From Bacillota bacterium (GTDB taxonomy: Bacteria; Bacillota; Limnochordia; Darwinibacteriales; Darwinibacteriaceae): 64,000 nucleotides of DNA. Numbering within the stretch: the stretch's first letter is position 1; every line of letters begins with the position of its first letter. Positions 39,070 through 48,530 of this stretch are shown here, piece by piece. The stretch covers positions 1-64,000 of the forward strand of contig DURQ01000041.1 of assembly GCA_012840725.1 (NCBI GenBank), written 5' to 3'. The notes beneath the pieces are model-generated. The model was not told where the DNA came from and did not search any database. It worked only from the letters and a program-made list of their open reading frames with translations. The translations under genes and the position numbers were made by a program.

Positions 39070-40956
39070 TCATGCTGGAGGCACTGCCTCTCGCCGGGAC
39101 TGGTAGTGCCTGCTGTGCAGTTCGCCATCGCTCGCGTAAAACAGCCTGTTGGCACAATCTGTACCGATGGTCCCCTGCACAGAGCCGATCCGCAGCCGCA
39201 CTCCGGAGCAGAACCGGCGAGCCGCGATCACCCCTCCGTCGCACACCGTTAGAGACGGCGCTCCCATGCCAGTGGAACCCACCACCTGGGCATAAATGGA
39301 GGAACCGGTATAGGAGCCGCTGCGGCACTGCCCGCCCAATTCCAAAGTCTTCCCGGCAGTGATCTCGCAGTCGTAGATCAGCAGACCTGCCACCGTAACA
39401 TTACCGGTAGCCTCGATCTTAGCGTTCTGACAGTAGTGCACCACGACATCTGCTGCCGCGTCAACGTGCTCCTCCAGTTGACTGGCAAGGGTGCGCAGCT
39501 GCAGCCGGTAACGGGCGACCTCTTCAGAGCAGGCGATCTCCAGAGGGGCTGCACCTAGAAACCTTTCAGCGATATACTTCAAAGCCGCGGACGACTTGGC
39601 AAGCTCTTCTGCACCGGGATCCAGGTCGCCGCTCAGCAGCTCGTGCAGCTGACCAAAGTGTTTCGGGATCTGGGGCAGGCGGGTCTCCAGCAGGACTTTG
39701 ATCAGGTAGCCGTCGCCGCGCCAGCCAAAGGAGTTCCCGCTCCCAGCAAGATGTTCCCGGAGCTGATAAAAAGCAAAAAGAAGCTGATCCAGATCACGGT
39801 CCAGCCAGCTCAAGAGCTTGACGGCCTTTGCAAGTCCTGGCTGATTGATGCCGGCGATCACAGAGCCTCCGATCAGCTTGCCAGCGATGGTCACTCCCCC
39901 ATCGGCGATAATAGTCGCATGGTAAGCGCTGCCGTACACATCAACCCCGCCGCCAGCCCTAACGGTCAGAGATTCTTCCACATCGCCCATGATCAACACA
40001 TCGCCTTTGAAATCGACGTTCCCCGAAGCTACCGTCACATTCCCGCCGATCACGAGCTGAGTGTTGACCTGCAGCACCCCCCGCTGGAAAGTGGGCCTTC
40101 CGGTCACTTCGGCGACGGCGATCCGCCCGTCCTTGATCAACTTCACACCGGGCCCTGCCGTGAACTGCACCGGGCGCGGCAGCCGGGGCGGAACCTCGCG
40201 GCCGAAGACATCTTTCCCGGGCTTGCCCGGTTCAGAAGGATGGAGTACGGCCAAGACTTCGCCGGCATTCACAGCGTTATAGGTGCCTCGGTCCAAAATG
40301 TCTACCCGGTCGCCCTCCTTCTCACTGGGGACCCGGGGCTTGAGGTCACAGACCAGTTCCACACGACCGTCCACTGGAGGAACGGGCGCGACGCCCCGGG
40401 CGATCACCACATCGGCATCGCGGCATTCACTGCAGGCCTGCAGGAGCAGGTCAGTCTCGACTGTCTCAGGTTGAACACCCATTTCCTGCAGCTTGGCCAA
40501 GACCAACGCGGGATCGATCGGCTTAGGCGGCACGTCTGCAGCCGGAACCGCTTTGAGCACCAGCCGCTGCTGAAACTCCTCATCCCGCAGCTTGTACACC
40601 GTCCCGAAACGAAAGCGCGTTTTCAAGGTCACCTTCATCCTGTCCCGGGAAACGATCAGCTCAAACTTGCTCTGCGGCGGCTCGTGCTGGAGCGCGATGG
40701 AAAAGCCCTCCAGGCTCTCCACAATTGTCGGCCCTGTGACCAGCTTGTCCCCCTGGCGCAGGCTCAGGTGAGGACCAGGTACAATCACCGGCCAGGCGCC
40801 TCGCCCCTGCGGCTCTTCCATGCGCAGCTGCCCGCAGACGACGGCAAGCCTTCCCTCCCGGTCGATCTGATCGGCTTCTACTACATTTTCGGTTATTTTT
40901 TCTAATTCTTTCGACGATTCCGCGCCCAAATTGGACAACGATACTCCGTTTGTCAT
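39070..40956 (-). CDS. FapA/DUF342 domain protein
   Basis: A 628-residue protein of the DUF342 (FapA) group. The central part (about residues 190-430) shows the right-handed beta-helix character of the family, with runs such as GGNVTVASGNVDFKGDVLIM and ADGGVTIAGKLIGGSVIAG. The N-terminal 150 residues contain a second small domain, and the long helical segment (430-540) precedes a last beta-helix piece (IEATGNVTVAGLLIYDCEIT). DUF342 proteins are often encoded near motility or cell-surface genes; function is unsettled. The ATG at 40956 follows GGGGGG. The c-di-GMP riboswitch and terminator in front control it. Confidence 0.88.
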   Translation of the reverse strand: MTNGVSLSNLGAESSKELEKITENVVEADQIDREGRLAVVCGQLRMEEPQGRGAWPVIVPGPHLSLRQGDKLVTGPTIVESLEGFSIALQHEPPQSKFELIVSRDRMKVTLKTRFRFGTVYKLRDEEFQQRLVLKAVPAADVPPKPIDPALVLAKLQEMGVQPETVETDLLLQACSECRDADVVIARGVAPVPPVDGRVELVCDLKPRVPSEKEGDRVDILDRGTYNAVNAGEVLAVLHPSEPGKPGKDVFGREVPPRLPRPVQFTAGPGVKLIKDGRIAVAEVTGRPTFQRGVLQVNTQLVIGGNVTVASGNVDFKGDVLIMGDVEESLTVRAGGGVDVYGSAYHATIIADGGVTIAGKLIGGSVIAGINQPGLAKAVKLLSWLDRDLDQLLFAFYQLREHLAGSGNSFGWRGDGYLIKVLLETRLPQIPKHFGQLHELLSGDLDPGAEELAKSSAALKYIAERFLGAAPLEIACSEEVARYRLQLRTLASQLEEHVDAAADVVVHYCQNAKIEATGNVTVAGLLIYDCEITAGKTLELGGQCRSGSYTGSSIYAQVVGSTGMGAPSLTVCDGGVIAARRFCSGVRLRIGSVQGTIGTDCANRLFYASDGELHSRHYQSRREAVPPA

Positions 40957-40983
40957 TCCCAACCCCCCTAGGCATAAAAAAAC

Positions 40984-41009
40984 GCTTCCCAACCAGGCAG
41001 TTAGGAAGC
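40984..41009 (-). terminator. Riboswitch expression-platform terminator
   Basis: GCTTCC.AAC pairs with GTT.GGAAGC around a short loop, followed on the minus strand by GTTTTTTT. It stands between the aptamer and the DUF342 gene, so it is an intrinsic terminator that the aptamer can open or close. Confidence 0.9.
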
Positions 41010-41105
41010 ATTCGAAACCGCAACTGGCTGGCATACACGTAACGTGCTTAGCCCCTCTAGCTTTGCGTCCCATGATTTCTCATGGTTTGCCAAATATTCA
41101 CTTCC
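41010..41105 (-). promoter_or_regulatory. Cyclic di-GMP-I (GEMM-I) riboswitch aptamer
   Basis: On the minus strand the sequence runs TTTGGCAAACC, then a perfect CCATGA-GAAA-TCATGG hairpin with a GNRA loop, then GGGACGCAAAGC, then a second arm with a CACG/CGTG tip, ending at GCCAGCCAGTTGCGG. The order AAACC, GNRA hairpin, GGACGCAAAGC, second hairpin is the class I c-di-GMP aptamer. It is followed at once by an intrinsic terminator and the DUF342 gene. Confidence 0.92.
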
Positions 41106-41946: not shown

Positions 41947-43623
41947 GTGCTGGTATTGATCGTGCGAAGGCAGATGCTGGTCAGGCTGCTCTGGCTCCCC
42001 ATACTAGCCTTCCTGGCCGCGGGGGCAGCGCTTACCGCACTTGCCTGGCTGGCCGATCCACCTCCCCCGCCGCGGCTGGGACTTGCCGCCCTATCGGCCG
42101 AGCTGGTCTTTGACCTGTTCCCCGGTGGCAGGTTTTCCGAGGTGGTTCTAGGAGGAGAGCGCCAGCTTGAGGAAAGCCTGGTCAGCGGCGACCTGGACTA
42201 CCTTCTGGAAATCGGAGCGCCGGGTGACGGCTTGGTGAGCTGGCCCCTGGGCTATCTGGTCCCTGCGGTTGTTGTGCCGTTCTTCTCCGAGCGCCAAGGG
42301 CTGGATGTGAGAGAACTTGAGGACCTCCTTTTCTTCCGCCCGGAACAAGTCTTGGTCGCCGCGGAGCTGGCTCTGCCGGGCTTCCCCTGGTCAGGAAAGC
42401 CGGTGCAGTACCTGCCCGCCGGCCAGGTGGTTGAGACTCTGCGTGAAAACCGCGCCGCCCTGGGGATTATCCCCCTGCAGGCACGGAGGCCCGCCGTGCG
42501 GGTTCTGCCCCTTGGCGGCGTCGATCCCCGGGAGTGCGCCGATGACCCGGAAGCCTATCCCCTGACCCGGGGCATCTACCTCAGCCAGGCGCCTCAGAGC
42601 CTCCCCGATCGGCTGAGGGCATGGGTGCAGAACCGGCTGCGCAATCCCATAGATGCTTTCCGCCTTCTGGCCCAGCAGACTGACTACGCCGATCCCTGGG
42701 CGGGGGAGGTTTCCCTTTTGGCGGCCGGGGACATCATGCTCGACCGGGATGTGAAGAAATCGGGGCTGGAAAAGGGCTGGGAGTACCTTTTTGCGGAGAC
42801 CGCTCCCCTCCTGCGCAGTGCAGATCTGAGCTTCGCTAACCTGGAGTCGCCCATCGGCGCGGCCGGCCGCTTCATCAACATGTTCCAAGCCCCTTCTCAG
42901 GCCGTGGAGGGCCTGGCCTTCGCCGGGCTCGATGTTCTGTCCCTCGCCAACAACCACGCCCTGGATTACCACCATGAAGGCTTGCTTGAGACCATGCGGC
43001 TTCTGCGGGAGTACGGAATCGACTGGGTCGGCGCAGGCCGCAATATCGAAGAAGCCCGCCGCCCGCTGATCCGGGAGGTGGGCGGAGTGAAGGTCGGTTT
43101 TCTGGCATACACCGAAATGTGGTTTGTCTATGCCCGGGAACCCATCAGCTGGCAGGCCACCCCGGACGAACCTGGTGTCGCCCCTGCAGAGCTCGATCAA
43201 GTGGTGGAAGATGTGCACCGCCTGCGGGGGCAGGTGGATGTGCTGGTTGTCAGCGTGCACTGGGGAAAGGAATATGTACACGAGCCTACGCCCGAGCAGA
43301 TGTCCCTGGCCCGGGCTGCAGCTGAAGCGGGCGCGGATATTGTACTCGGCCACCACCCCCATGTCCTTCAGGGGATCGAGTTTTGGGGGAAGGGCGTGAT
43401 CGCCTACAGCCTTGGCAACTTCGTCTTCGACCTCAACCTGCCGAGCACCTGGGAGACTGTGCTCCTCCAGTTCACCTTCACGAGGGGCGGCGTCCGCGAC
43501 TTAGACATCATTCCTGCCTACATCTCCGGCGTTCAGCCCCGCATACTTGAAGGAGCGCACAGAGAGGCGGTGTACCAGCGCCTGAGGCAGTACTCCCTGC
43601 CCCTGATGGCTCCCAGTTCTTAG
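41947..43623 (+). CDS. CapA-family (PGA capsule synthesis-like) protein
   Basis: A 558-residue membrane-anchored protein. An N-terminal helix (LWLPILAFLAAGAALTALAW) is followed by a domain of about 200 residues that looks like part of a periplasmic binding fold. The CapA metallophosphatase-like domain runs from about 255 to 540: LLAAGDIMLDRDVKKSGLEK, FANLESPIG, LSLANNHALDYHHEGL and LVVSVHWGKEY, ADIVLGHHPHVLQG. CapA proteins take part in poly-gamma-glutamate production or export, but many relatives have other roles, and no capBC genes are here. The start is a GTG at 41947 with GGGAGG upstream. Confidence 0.85.
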   Translation: MLVLIVRRQMLVRLLWLPILAFLAAGAALTALAWLADPPPPPRLGLAALSAELVFDLFPGGRFSEVVLGGERQLEESLVSGDLDYLLEIGAPGDGLVSWPLGYLVPAVVVPFFSERQGLDVRELEDLLFFRPEQVLVAAELALPGFPWSGKPVQYLPAGQVVETLRENRAALGIIPLQARRPAVRVLPLGGVDPRECADDPEAYPLTRGIYLSQAPQSLPDRLRAWVQNRLRNPIDAFRLLAQQTDYADPWAGEVSLLAAGDIMLDRDVKKSGLEKGWEYLFAETAPLLRSADLSFANLESPIGAAGRFINMFQAPSQAVEGLAFAGLDVLSLANNHALDYHHEGLLETMRLLREYGIDWVGAGRNIEEARRPLIREVGGVKVGFLAYTEMWFVYAREPISWQATPDEPGVAPAELDQVVEDVHRLRGQVDVLVVSVHWGKEYVHEPTPEQMSLARAAAEAGADIVLGHHPHVLQGIEFWGKGVIAYSLGNFVFDLNLPSTWETVLLQFTFTRGGVRDLDIIPAYISGVQPRILEGAHREAVYQRLRQYSLPLMAPSS

Positions 43624-44204: not shown

Positions 44205-44912
44205 TTAGATTGACCCGTTTAGGAACGCCTTTCTCAGGTCGGGGTCGAACTTCTCTATGGCGTAGCGCAGCATGGTGCGGGGCATTCTGCGGTAGTGCTC
44301 CTGGAGAAAGGCGTACTCGATCTCAAAGTCCCGTTTGCCGATCTCCCGCAGCATCCAGCCAACGGCCTTGTGCATCAGGTCATGCTCGTGATCGAGGAAG
44401 AACTCGGCGAGCCTTAAGGTGTCGGCAAAGTCTCCCTTACTTATGAAGTATTGAGTCGCGAGCACAGCGATGCGCTGGCGCCAGAGATGCCCCGAGCGGG
44501 CCAGCTCCCACAGGACGCTGCGATCGCGATCGTAGAGATAGGCGCCTAAGATGTTAGGTGCGGAGGTATCCACCAGATCCCAGTTGTTGATGAAATCGGC
44601 GGCTCCGAGGTAGAGCTCCACGATTTCTCTGCGCTCGGCTTCGCTCTTGGCCCGCTTAAACTTTGACACCGCCATAGCTAGGGCGGTAAAGCGGCACTCG
44701 TGGATGGGGTCCCGCAGCAGGGCCTCCAGTTCGGCCAGGGAGATCTGGCGGTAGAACTTCCGGGCTACCCGCCGCTGGTCGGGGACAGTGATGCCCCACA
44801 GGATGTCCCCCTCGCCGTAACCGCCAGGCTTTACCTGGAAGTACTTGAGCAGGAACTCTGCTTTTTCCGGATTGCTGTACTTCTGGAGTTCCTGTTTGAT
44901 CTGCTCTATCAC
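44205..44912 (-). CDS. DNA alkylation repair protein, AlkD family
   Basis: A 235-residue all-helical HEAT-like-repeat glycosylase that removes alkylated bases such as 3-methyladenine or 7-methylguanine. Matching blocks include FQVKPGGYGEGDILWGITVP, DQRRVARKF, the central NNWDLVDTSAPNILGAYL (the acid-aromatic site region) and MLREIGKRDFEIEYAFLQEH. The length is the family norm. The GTG start overlaps the stop of the GTPase-NYN gene by 4 bases, so the two are co-translated. Confidence 0.92.
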   Translation of the reverse strand: MIEQIKQELQKYSNPEKAEFLLKYFQVKPGGYGEGDILWGITVPDQRRVARKFYRQISLAELEALLRDPIHECRFTALAMAVSKFKRAKSEAERREIVELYLGAADFINNWDLVDTSAPNILGAYLYDRDRSVLWELARSGHLWRQRIAVLATQYFISKGDFADTLRLAEFFLDHEHDLMHKAVGWMLREIGKRDFEIEYAFLQEHYRRMPRTMLRYAIEKFDPDLRKAFLNGSI

Positions 44913-47545
44913 TGCTTCTTCCTCCCTGCATTCTGCCTGATCTCTTCCATCCGCTCCCTGATTTCCTCAGGGAGCCCTTCTTCCAGAGCAGCGCGGCCCA
45001 GCCTCCGCCTGTTCTTGTAGGTCGTTTCCAGCCTTTCTCGGGCCGCCTCTAATTCTTCCTTGAGCTCCCGTGCGGAGAGCAGCGCACAGCCCGCGCTCCG
45101 CAGGATCACCTGCTGCAGGGCGTCGCTGGTGGCAACCACGATTTCGTAGTCTTTCTTGAAATCGTAGGCGAACTTCTCGATGTACTCGTCGGCCGTCTGG
45201 GCTTCTTTGGTGTACACGACTTGGATGTTGTGGTGCTGTTCAACCTCGGCCACGGTGCGGTCGGGCACCGCGTAAGCGTCAAATACCACCATGACCTTGT
45301 TCTGCTTCAGTCCCTGGTAGTTGGCGAGGGCATCGAGCAGCCGGATGCGCGCGATATCCATGTTGTCCTCGGCCAGCTCTTTCAGCTCGGGCCAGGCATG
45401 GATGACGTTGTAGCCGTCCACAAGGAGGTACTGTTCCCGGGGCTCGGGCAGCCGGCCGGAAGCAGCCTGCCTGTCCTGCTTCCCGCCCGCGGCCCTGCTC
45501 TGCTTGAAGCCTGCCTGTGTTCCCCGGTTCGCGGCGGTGTCCCAGAAACCCCAGTCCTCGTAGTCGTCGGCGGAGCTCGTCACTGGATGCCTGATAACGG
45601 GGCCGGAGCCTGCCTGCCGCTTCTCCTCCTGAAGGAAAGCGGGTGCGTGCATCACGCGCTTGACCTCGTGCCAGGGCACGTACACGCTTGAGCCGTTGAA
45701 GAAAAAGATCGAGCCGGAGGGGTTGGCCGCATCGCGCTCCGGGTCGTAGCCGATGGCAGCGATCACATCCTGAGCATTGTGGCACGGCCGGTAGCCCTCA
45801 ACGCTCAGCGAAAGGCGCCCCAAACCTCTGGTATATGCGGCTACTTCCCGGTGGTAGTTGCGCATGGTTACCACAGGTGCACTGCCCACCAAAACGGCTG
45901 ACTCCCCAACTGAAGGAGCAAGCTCCCAGCTTGCCTGCATCTTTTCCATGTCGCTCATGGCGCGGCCGACCTGCTTTTCCGGGACCTCCAGGCGGAAGGA
46001 GTAATAGGGTTCCAGAAGGACGGAACGGGCTTCCATGAGCCCCTGGCGCACGGCCCGGTAGGTGGCTTCCCGGAAGTCTCCCCCTTCCGTGATCTCCCTG
46101 CTTGCCTGTCCCCCGACCAAGGTGATCTTCATATCGGTGATGGGCGAACCAGTCAGGACGCCCACATGGGTTTTTTCCTGGAGGTGGGTGAGGATCAGGC
46201 GCTGCCAGTTCTTGGCCAGCACATCTTCGCTGCAGCCCACGGCAAACTCCAGCCCGCTGCCCCGCTCACCGGGCTCCAGCAGCAGGTGGACTTCTGCATA
46301 GTGCCCCATGGGCTCGAAGTGCCCCACACCCTCAACCGCGCTCGAGATGGTCTCTTTGTACAGGATGCTGCCTTCGCCAAACTGTACCAGAAGACCAAAG
46401 CGCTCCGCGATCAGGCGCTGCAGGATCTCGGTCTGCACCTCTCCCATGAGCTGGACTTGGATCTCCTGCAGCAGCTCATCCCAGAGGATGTGCAGCGCGG
46501 GCTCTTCTTCCTCGAGCTCCCGGAGTTTGGGCAGGATGTTGCGGGCATCGCATCCCTCAGGGAGGATGATGCGGTAGGCCAGCACAGGCTCCAGTACAGG
46601 AGTGCGCGCCTGCCCCTCCGCCCCCAAGCCGTCTCCTGGCCTGGTGCGGCTGAGCCCCGTTACTGCGCAGACCGTTCCCGGACCCACCTCCTGGACCACT
46701 TCGTACTTCCCGCCCGAATAAACCCGGATCTGGTTGACTTTTTCTTCCCAACCGCTCCCCTGCACGGCATCTTTAACCTTCAGGCTCCCGCCCGTGATCT
46801 TCAGGTGTGTGAGGCGGGCACCCTGATCATCGCGGGAAATCTTGAAGACCCGGGCCCCAAACTCTCGGTGATAGCACGGCTCTTTCGTATAGGCGGCAAG
46901 CCCTTCCAGGAATTCAAGTACGCCCTCTACCTTGAGGGCCGAGCCGAAATAGACTGGAAAGAGCCGGCGGCCGGCAACTGCAGCCTGGATGGATTCGGGA
47001 GTCAGGGTGCCGGTGGCCGTGTACTCCTGGAGGAGTTCCTCGCTGCAAAGGGCTGCCTGCTCCAGGAAGTCCTCGGAGGTAAGATCGACGCAGCGGGCGT
47101 CCAGCACTTCCCAGAGCTCCCTCAGGAGTGCCTCCCGATCTGCCTTGGGCTGGTCCATCTTGTTGACAAAGATGAAGACGGGGAGCCTGTACAGTTCCAG
47201 CAGGCGCCAGATCGTGCTGGAGTGCCCCTGTACGCCGTCTGCGGCGCTGATCACGAGGATTGCGCTGTCCAGAACCTGCAGAGTCCTTTCCATTTCGGGG
47301 GAAAAATCGACATGGCCGGGGGTGTCCAGCAGAGTGAACTCCGTGCCGCCGAAATGGAAAACAGCCTGCTTGGCAAAGATGGTGATGCCCCGCTCCCGCT
47401 CAAGATCGTGGGTATCGAGGTAGGCATCGCCCTTGTCGACCCGGCCCAAACGCTGGATGCGGCCGCTTACGTAGAGCATGCTCTCGGATAATGTGGTTTT
47501 CCCTGCATCGACATGGGCCAGGATGCCCACCACTCTTCTCCCCAT
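44909..47545 (-). CDS. Tet(M)/EF-G-like GTPase fused to a Rae1/YacP-like NYN ribonuclease domain
   Basis: An 878-residue fusion. Residues 1-650 form a translational GTPase of the ribosomal-protection type: G1 AHVDAGKTTLSE, G2 RGITIFAKQ, G3 DTPGHVDF, G4 NKMD, then EF-G-like domains II-V with the domain-IV-like ending (MHAPAFLQEEKRQ). A Gly/Arg/Gln-rich linker (about 655-705) joins a C-terminal NYN domain (706-835) with YLLVDGYNVIHAWPELKEL, VVFDAY, TADEYIEKF and VVATSDALQQ, the acidic active-site pattern of YacP/Rae1, an endonuclease that cuts mRNA in the ribosomal A site. A charged helical tail ends the protein. It probably acts on ribosomes. Drug resistance is not implied. Confidence 0.88.
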   Translation of the reverse strand: MGRRVVGILAHVDAGKTTLSESMLYVSGRIQRLGRVDKGDAYLDTHDLERERGITIFAKQAVFHFGGTEFTLLDTPGHVDFSPEMERTLQVLDSAILVISAADGVQGHSSTIWRLLELYRLPVFIFVNKMDQPKADREALLRELWEVLDARCVDLTSEDFLEQAALCSEELLQEYTATGTLTPESIQAAVAGRRLFPVYFGSALKVEGVLEFLEGLAAYTKEPCYHREFGARVFKISRDDQGARLTHLKITGGSLKVKDAVQGSGWEEKVNQIRVYSGGKYEVVQEVGPGTVCAVTGLSRTRPGDGLGAEGQARTPVLEPVLAYRIILPEGCDARNILPKLRELEEEEPALHILWDELLQEIQVQLMGEVQTEILQRLIAERFGLLVQFGEGSILYKETISSAVEGVGHFEPMGHYAEVHLLLEPGERGSGLEFAVGCSEDVLAKNWQRLILTHLQEKTHVGVLTGSPITDMKITLVGGQASREITEGGDFREATYRAVRQGLMEARSVLLEPYYSFRLEVPEKQVGRAMSDMEKMQASWELAPSVGESAVLVGSAPVVTMRNYHREVAAYTRGLGRLSLSVEGYRPCHNAQDVIAAIGYDPERDAANPSGSIFFFNGSSVYVPWHEVKRVMHAPAFLQEEKRQAGSGPVIRHPVTSSADDYEDWGFWDTAANRGTQAGFKQSRAAGGKQDRQAASGRLPEPREQYLLVDGYNVIHAWPELKELAEDNMDIARIRLLDALANYQGLKQNKVMVVFDAYAVPDRTVAEVEQHHNIQVVYTKEAQTADEYIEKFAYDFKKDYEIVVATSDALQQVILRSAGCALLSARELKEELEAARERLETTYKNRRRLGRAALEEGLPEEIRERMEEIRQNAGRKKQ

Positions 47546-47633: not shown

Positions 47634-47652
47634 GCCAGCATCAGCTGCTGGC
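47634..47652 (-). terminator. Rho-independent terminator overlapping the XRE gene stop
   Basis: A 6-bp stem GCCAGC/GCTGGC with a 7-base loop is followed on the minus strand by TTTTTCG. The stem includes the last codons and the stop of the small regulator gene. Confidence 0.85.
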
Positions 47653-47856
47653 TTCTTCTTGATACTCCAAGATGTCTCCCGGCTGGCACTCCAGCTCCCG
47701 GCAGATGGCCTCGAGAGTGCTGAAGCGGATGGCCTTCACTTTCCCTGTCTTCAGGTTCGACAGGTTGACCAGGGAAATTCCAACCTTTTCGGCGAGAACG
47801 GTGAGGGGCATTTTGCGGTCGGCTAAGACCCGATCGAGTCTCACGATGATAGGCAT
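47641..47856 (-). CDS. Small Cro/C1-type (XRE) regulator, YozG-like
   Basis: A 71-residue single-domain DNA-binding protein: IIVRLDRVLADRKMPLTVLA, EKVGISLVNLSNLKTGKV and FSTLEAICRELECQPGDILE are the five-helix fold of the short 'YozG/HTH_26' regulators. The ATG at 47856 follows AGGAGG at 6 bases. It lies 10 bases after the DUF2975 gene. DUF2975 plus this regulator is a pair that recurs in Firmicutes, as in B. subtilis YoaS/YozG. It probably controls its own operon. Confidence 0.92.
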   Translation of the reverse strand: MPIIVRLDRVLADRKMPLTVLAEKVGISLVNLSNLKTGKVKAIRFSTLEAICRELECQPGDILEYQEEASS

Positions 47857-47866
47857 AAGGACCCTC

Positions 47867-48469
47867 CTAGACCGTCTGATCCATTTCCTGCTGCAGGTAG
47901 CAGCCGTAGGCAAACACCGCCGCCAGCACTGTGAGCAAGAATCCGATGAAGGCCAGCTCCACATCGGGGGAATAGGTGACGGAAAAACCGGCAAGGGAAA
48001 AGGTGGATATCATCTTCACCGCGACCCAGCTGTTGGCGGCGGGGAATATGAAGCCACCTGCGATCACAGCCGCACCGATGTCCCGAACCCGCTTGGGGTT
48101 GCCCGGATGGAAGGGGTTGCCCGAAGCCACCGTGTCCATCACCTGCCGCAAACGCAGCACGATGAAGATAAAGAAGAGGAGATAGACGATGGCTGCCGCA
48201 GCAATGCCCTGGAATACCTCCCTCACGCCCCGCGCGGGATCGATCTTGGCGGTGTCTACCCGGTAGCGCACGAGCCCGTTGAGCTCGAAGGTGAAGCTGC
48301 TGCTGGCGAAGCGTTCTGGTGCGAAGTAGCGGTCAGGTCCGAGCACAGTGAACACCGCCATGAGCACTGCGAGGACGAGGGCAACGATCCCAGCCCAATG
48401 AAAGACCTTGAGTACTGTTCTGACCGGTCCGGCGAACTTAGCCGCCAGCCGTGCTTCTGCTGCCTGCAT
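47867..48469 (-). CDS. DUF2975 membrane protein, YoaS-like
   Basis: A 200-residue protein with four predicted helices: VFHWAGIVALVLAVLMAVFT, GIAAAAIVYLLFFIFIVLRL, a third around AAVIAGGFIFPAAN and a fourth near AFIGFLLTVLAAVFAYG. The segment RQVMDTVASGNPFHPGNPKR between helices 2 and 3 is the DUF2975 hallmark. The start at 48469 has AAAGGAGG at 8 bases. Function unknown; it is encoded with its small regulator behind a consensus promoter. Confidence 0.88.
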   Translation of the reverse strand: MQAAEARLAAKFAGPVRTVLKVFHWAGIVALVLAVLMAVFTVLGPDRYFAPERFASSSFTFELNGLVRYRVDTAKIDPARGVREVFQGIAAAAIVYLLFFIFIVLRLRQVMDTVASGNPFHPGNPKRVRDIGAAVIAGGFIFPAANSWVAVKMISTFSLAGFSVTYSPDVELAFIGFLLTVLAAVFAYGCYLQQEMDQTV

Positions 48470-48500
48470 AGTTGTGGCCTCCTTTGAACTTCTTGATCTC

Positions 48501-48530
48501 AGCATAGCACGGCGGTTTTATGTGTGTCAA
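48501..48530 (-). promoter_or_regulatory. Promoter of the DUF2975-XRE operon
   Basis: On the minus strand TTGACA (48530-48525), 18 bases, TATGCT (48506-48501). An AT-rich stretch with ATAAC and GTTTAT words just upstream may bind the small regulator. Confidence 0.8.

Follow-up and report, generated by a model that had tools for sequence, protein, structure and literature searches.

In Bacillus subtilis, Rae1 (YacP) cuts mRNA in the ribosomal A site, and an R166P substitution in the enzyme results in loss of function (PMC6613710, PMC12320835). The A site is also entered by domain IV of the Tet and EF-G proteins, and a loop of the Tet proteins that bears Pro509 displaces tetracycline (PMC7456112, PMC8161019). 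In ten Clostridiales species, Tet proteins were reported to have gained an NYN RNase domain of the YacP kind, for which a new mechanism of resistance was suggested (Atkinson 2015, PMC4342817).

Here we analyze a gene in a 64,000-nucleotide stretch of a Bacillota genome (hereafter the window) that encodes a protein of this type. By description it fits the proteins of Atkinson 2015, which consist of an EF-G/Tet-like GTPase followed by a YacP-like NYN domain and occur in Clostridia-type hosts. A preliminary description of this DNA could not tell whether such fusions had been catalogued; they have. The architecture is known because the 2015 study reported it and because RefSeq already names a Monoglobus homologue, 50% identical over residues 1-819, as a 'translation factor GTPase family protein.' No functional study of the fusion was found in the literature searched, which covered the Rae1 papers only in part. 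What is new is the evolutionary evidence that the fusion replaced standalone rae1.

Domain architecture of the fusion protein

The gene opens with ATG and encodes a single protein without internal stops (Table 1). Motifs G1 to G4, the catalytic His in DTPGH, and domains II to V place the protein among the EF2-family translational GTPases; domain III falls below threshold in Pfam, yet it is modelled by AlphaFold2. The extension that follows domain V is also found in relatives that lack the NYN domain but neither Tet(M/O/W) nor the EF-G-like sequence in the comparison has it. The AlphaFold2 model, built with 16 homologues, has a mean pLDDT of 79, with ordered GTPase and NYN parts on either side of a disordered linker. 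The best Foldseek matches of the whole model are EF-G structures, at query-normalised TM scores of 0.33-0.57 among the 50 matches listed; such modest scores are expected of a multidomain protein in which the placement of the domains is uncertain. By sequence, the fusion matches Tet(O) (the best match), EF-G, and Rae1/YacP in the PDB, and its NYN domain matches the B. subtilis Rae1 structures 5MQ8 and 5MQ9 at an E value of about 1e-26 (8e-27 for 5MQ9). An Rfam search found no leader RNA near the gene.

Table 1. Features of the fusion gene, of its surroundings in the window, and of the rae1 relics in other fusion carriers
Feature	Position	Strand	Evidence
Whole fusion gene, 878 aa	44909..47545	(-)	open reading frame
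G domain, GTP_EFTU, residues 4-220, 168.9 bits; G1 AHVDAGKT, G3 DTPGH, G4 NKMD	46886..47536	(-)	Pfam, alignment
Domain II, EF-G_D2, residues 229-307, 36.7 bits	46625..46861	(-)	Pfam
Domain III, EFG_III, residues 319-390, 21.1 bits, below cut-off of 27	46376..46591	(-)	Pfam
Domain IV, EFG_IV, residues 393-506, 57.1 bits	46028..46369	(-)	Pfam
Domain IV tip loop 3, residues 479-490; family GRAHxxHTxGGD, window copy GQASREITEGGD	46076..46111	(-)	alignment
Domain V, EFG_C, residues 509-591, 54.1 bits	45773..46021	(-)	Pfam
Conserved post-V extension, residues 592-634	45644..45772	(-)	alignment; ordered in AlphaFold2 model
Linker, residues 635-703, mean identity 20%; 641-700 predicted disordered	45437..45643	(-)	alignment, model
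NYN_YacP (Rae1) domain, residues 707-870, 172.8 bits, cut-off 24.6	44936..45427	(-)	Pfam PF05991
AlkD-like gene, DNA_alkylation 205.6 bits; overlaps fusion 3' end by 4 nt (GTGA)	44205..44912	(-)	Pfam
PGA_cap (CapA-like) gene	41947-43623	(+)	
HTH_26 and DUF2975 genes, overlapping frames	47641-48505	(-)	
c-di-GMP-I riboswitch RF01051, 71.9 bits	41016-41101	(-)	
FapA-like gene	39070-41073	(-)	
Broken standalone rae1 relics between rlmB and sigH in fusion carriers	L242 1444-1686; L243 1468-1581		

Conservation of the two active centers

Across an alignment of fusions drawn from many families, the key residues of the G motifs (AHVDAGKT, T55, DTPGH 74-78, and NKMD 128-131) are identical in 35/35 sequences, as are D710, N713, D756, D786, E790, and D808 of the NYN domain. 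The six corresponding active-site-type residues of Rae1 (D7, N10, D53, D81, E85, and D104) show no variation, whether among the 35 fusions or among 27 standalone Rae1 proteins. Mean identity among fusions is 60% for the NYN domain and 62% for the G domain, against 20% for the linker, and proteins of the same architecture, about 850-1000 aa long, recur in many families. These results bear out the preliminary description in its central point, that an intact EF-G/Tet-like GTPase and a Rae1/YacP NYN domain stand in one protein; the acidic NYN residues are conserved among homologues, and the C-terminal domain matches YacP in a profile search. We reject an assembly error that joined separate genes because the architecture recurs in many families and both sets of motifs are invariant in the 35 homologues. 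Judged from this conservation, the fusion is maintained as a unit and both of its centers are apparently functional.

Several positions do vary. The window copy carries S482 and I485 at the tip of domain IV, where 31/35 relatives have His and His, and the loss of these tip-loop histidines may have altered its function. Most fusions have changed residues that are invariant in standalone Rae1 (E78 to Q and R118 to L); the position of Rae1 R166 is Q871 in the window copy, the basic C-terminal motif is not conserved in fusions, and the last helix is missing from several divergent ones. Since E78 and R118 are changed and the basic C-terminus around R166 is not kept, substrate or docking may differ from those of Rae1.

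Origin of the GTPase

Our tree of the GTPase part comprises 59 rows and is rooted with a single EF-G-like outgroup, a divergent EF-G paralogue (DTPGY) on a long branch. The fusions form one clade (support 97/93) that includes three actinobacterial rows without NYN near its base, and it lies outside Tet(M/O/W), which is a separate clade. The actinobacterial rows, from Bifidobacterium and Collinsella (L113, L115, and L116), could reflect either loss of the NYN domain or early branching, since support there is 83. NYN_YacP is absent from both Bifidobacterium genomes, and that of Collinsella encodes a divergent one in a gene apart from the GTPase; because Bifidobacterium has the GTPase without any NYN domain, the GTPase can have a job of its own. 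The sister clade of the fusions consists of GTPases without NYN from Neobacillus, Intestinibacter, and three further genomes, all of which (5/5) carry a separate rae1. In the NYN tree, fused and standalone domains split with an SH-aLRT support of 85. Both trees fit a single fusion event followed by inheritance and possibly transfer.

A contig scan with generic G motifs found 80 loci, most of them EF-G. In the genome of the window, an incomplete draft assembly in which canonical EF-G was not found, the only other EFG_IV match (L187, contig C94) belongs to a divergent paralogue of EF-G in which DTPGY stands in place of DTPGH.

Distribution of fused and standalone rae1

How often the two domains are fused, a survey that the preliminary description had proposed, could be answered at three taxonomic scales. 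Within the class of the window genome, every full-length NYN_YacP match is a fusion of 873-909 aa, except in one genome (G044) where the frame is broken into two pieces. In the phylum, NYN_YacP occurs in 164/300 genomes, with 18 fusions and the other 146 mostly standalone proteins of about 170-215 aa, about a dozen of the matches being weak ones without a listed frame length; no genome of this survey combined two distinct intact copies. In the order of genome G198, NYN_YacP occurs in 226/245 genomes, and among the 150 listed, 68 are fused, 80 are standalone, and 2 are of intermediate length. Both states occur, in different genomes, within families f63, f89, f140, f144, and f145. No genome in the three surveys was seen to hold an intact fusion together with an intact standalone rae1, although these counts are not phylogenetically independent and most of the genomes are drafts. 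One genome (G269) has two standalone copies of the same length and equal score and no fusion. Two fusion carriers, G381 and G401, gave two matches each and were considered as exceptions to this either-or pattern; we rejected them because their second matches are broken relics.

The vacated rlmB-sigH slot

Standalone rae1 directly follows rlmB in 27/27 loci, and sigH comes next in 26/27. In the window genome, rlmB is followed by sigH after 53 nt on contig C65, and the slot holds no rae1; since the two genes adjoin, the missing rae1 cannot be put down simply to the incompleteness of the assembly (84% complete). The genes are likewise neighbors in 20/24 other fusion genomes, and of the remaining four, two run into the edge of a contig, one has the genes 1.3 kb apart, and one is without sigH nearby. 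No NYN domain was found beside rlmB in the window genome or in the 24 others. In G401 and G381, which carry a full-length fusion, precisely the place between rlmB and sigH is taken by a broken rae1, a stop-ridden remnant in G401 and only about the first 36 codons in G381. The relics and the vacated slot are the strongest new evidence in this study. Taken with the either-or distribution, they indicate that the fusion took over from Rae1 and rendered the free enzyme dispensable.

Gene neighborhood in the window

The AlkD-like gene that overlaps the 3' end of the fusion gene had been taken to suggest a link to alkylation damage of nucleic acids. That suggestion is not supported by comparison, as an AlkD gene lies beside the fusion only in five genomes of the same genus (contiguous in three) and none was found beside the fusion outside it. 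The AlkD-like gene is a genus-level neighbor outside the conserved unit, and no conserved operon partner of the fusion was found across families.

Other features of the surroundings may be recorded here. A PGA_cap (CapA-like) gene is convergent with the fusion unit and recurs near the fusion across the family of the window genome. Immediately upstream of the fusion, the frames of an HTH_26 gene and a DUF2975 gene overlap, and a palindrome resembling a terminator lies where the HTH_26 gene ends. Farther off, a c-di-GMP-I riboswitch lies directly upstream of a FapA-like gene.

Discussion

We consider it probable, on the strength of these comparisons, that the protein is this lineage's Rae1, recast as the C-terminal part of a dedicated translational GTPase and acting as a ribosome-docked, GTP-dependent A-site mRNA endonuclease. 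A ribosome-docked, mRNA-cleaving machine was envisaged in the preliminary description, and it looks plausible still, strengthened by the replacement of standalone rae1. In such a scheme, the GTP-bound GTPase part would, like EF-G and Tet proteins, bind paused ribosomes at the factor site, and domain IV would enter and clear the A site. After GTP hydrolysis and the departure of domain IV, the tethered NYN domain would occupy the A site and cut the A-site codon, whereupon the mRNA could be degraded and the ribosome rescued. We propose this swap because domain IV and the NYN domain cannot occupy the A site together; the flexible linker would permit it, and its order, GTPase first and NYN second, we infer. 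It is also possible, if short of probable, that the Rae1 function as a whole moved into a translational GTPase, yielding a GTP-driven rescue factor that, once docked, clears the A site and uses a covalently attached RNase to cut the mRNA, and that this factor, which is common in Lachnospiraceae-like and related Bacillota, either displaced the free enzyme on more than one occasion or was spread by transfer.

A rather unlikely alternative is that two independent activities, a specialized EF-G-like GTPase and an NYN domain working as an ordinary, unaided Rae1, were fused chiefly so as to be co-expressed. Compatible with it are the relatives of the GTPase that lack NYN, whose hosts have a separate rae1 or, in Bifidobacterium, none; the long, disordered linker; and the standalone Rae1 of B. 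subtilis, which according to the literature is not fused to any GTPase. The fusion, however, once gained, was retained across many families, and the drift of R118 and the basic C-terminus after fusion suggests that docking was taken over by the GTPase. An rRNA or tRNA target on the ribosome, matured or degraded by the NYN domain in place of mRNA, recalls an early proposal for YacP-like NYN domains (cited in PMC4342817) and the ancestral position of rae1 next to rlmB, an rRNA methylase gene; we regard it as very improbable given that B. subtilis Rae1 is described as an A-site mRNA cutter (PMC6613710, PMC12320835).

PMC4342817 suggested a role in antibiotic resistance, in which the protein would be a ribosomal protection protein of the Tet type that also acts as an RNase. 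The Tet-like order of the domains speaks for such a role, as does Tet(O), the PDB entry that matches best by sequence. We nonetheless find it improbable. The fusion scores 402.7 bits against a cut-off of 775 in the NCBIfam tet_protect model, its domain IV has no YYSPVST loop with Pro509 (loop 3 is given in Table 1), and its GTPase belongs to a separate clade, for which reasons we reject it as a Tet resistance protein. Two genomes, G133 and G198, carry a genuine YYSPVST tet gene besides the fusion, and the absence of the Tet loop together with such carriers makes plain tetracycline resistance unlikely; the commonness of the fusion in some clades and the replacement of rae1 look like housekeeping. 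The earlier label 'ribosomal-protection-type' therefore holds only loosely. A connection with alkylation damage or with defense against phages would draw on the 4-nt overlap with the AlkD-like gene, but the restriction of that neighbor to one genus, recurrent neighbors that differ between groups, and a single core copy per genome with no recurrent defense-like neighbor seen make it barely credible.

A natural fusion that replaced the free enzyme suggests a GTPase partner for Rae1 and opens the recognition of paused ribosomes by Rae1 to direct tests. Tet-like names raise the expectation that these abundant proteins of gut and anaerobic bacteria are tetracycline resistance genes, an expectation that the fusion corrects.

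The closest known systems each share a part of this protein. B. subtilis Rae1/YacP (5MQ8 and 5MQ9) has the NYN_YacP domain and all of its core acidic residues in common with the fusion; it is, however, a standalone protein of about 170 aa encoded between rlmB and sigH, whereas the fusion is located elsewhere and for the most part no longer has E78, R118, or the basic C-terminus. Tet(M), Tet(O), and Tet(W) possess the same G, II, III, IV, and V domains and G motifs at about 28-32% identity but differ in their Pro509 loop, their C-terminal extension, their clade, and the lack of an NYN domain. EF-G shares the fold and the catalytic His in DTPGH at about 25-29% identity, while the fusion scores well below the EF-G model cut-offs and has the NYN domain in addition. 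Nearest in the GTPase part are the NYN-less proteins of Neobacillus, Intestinibacter, and their relatives, which share loop 3 and the post-V extension but leave Rae1 to a separate gene. The clostridial 'Tet'-NYN proteins of Atkinson 2015 have the same domain order as the window fusion; they were read there as Tet proteins equipped with an RNase for resistance, whereas our data point to a GTPase clade of their own and to the replacement of standalone rae1.
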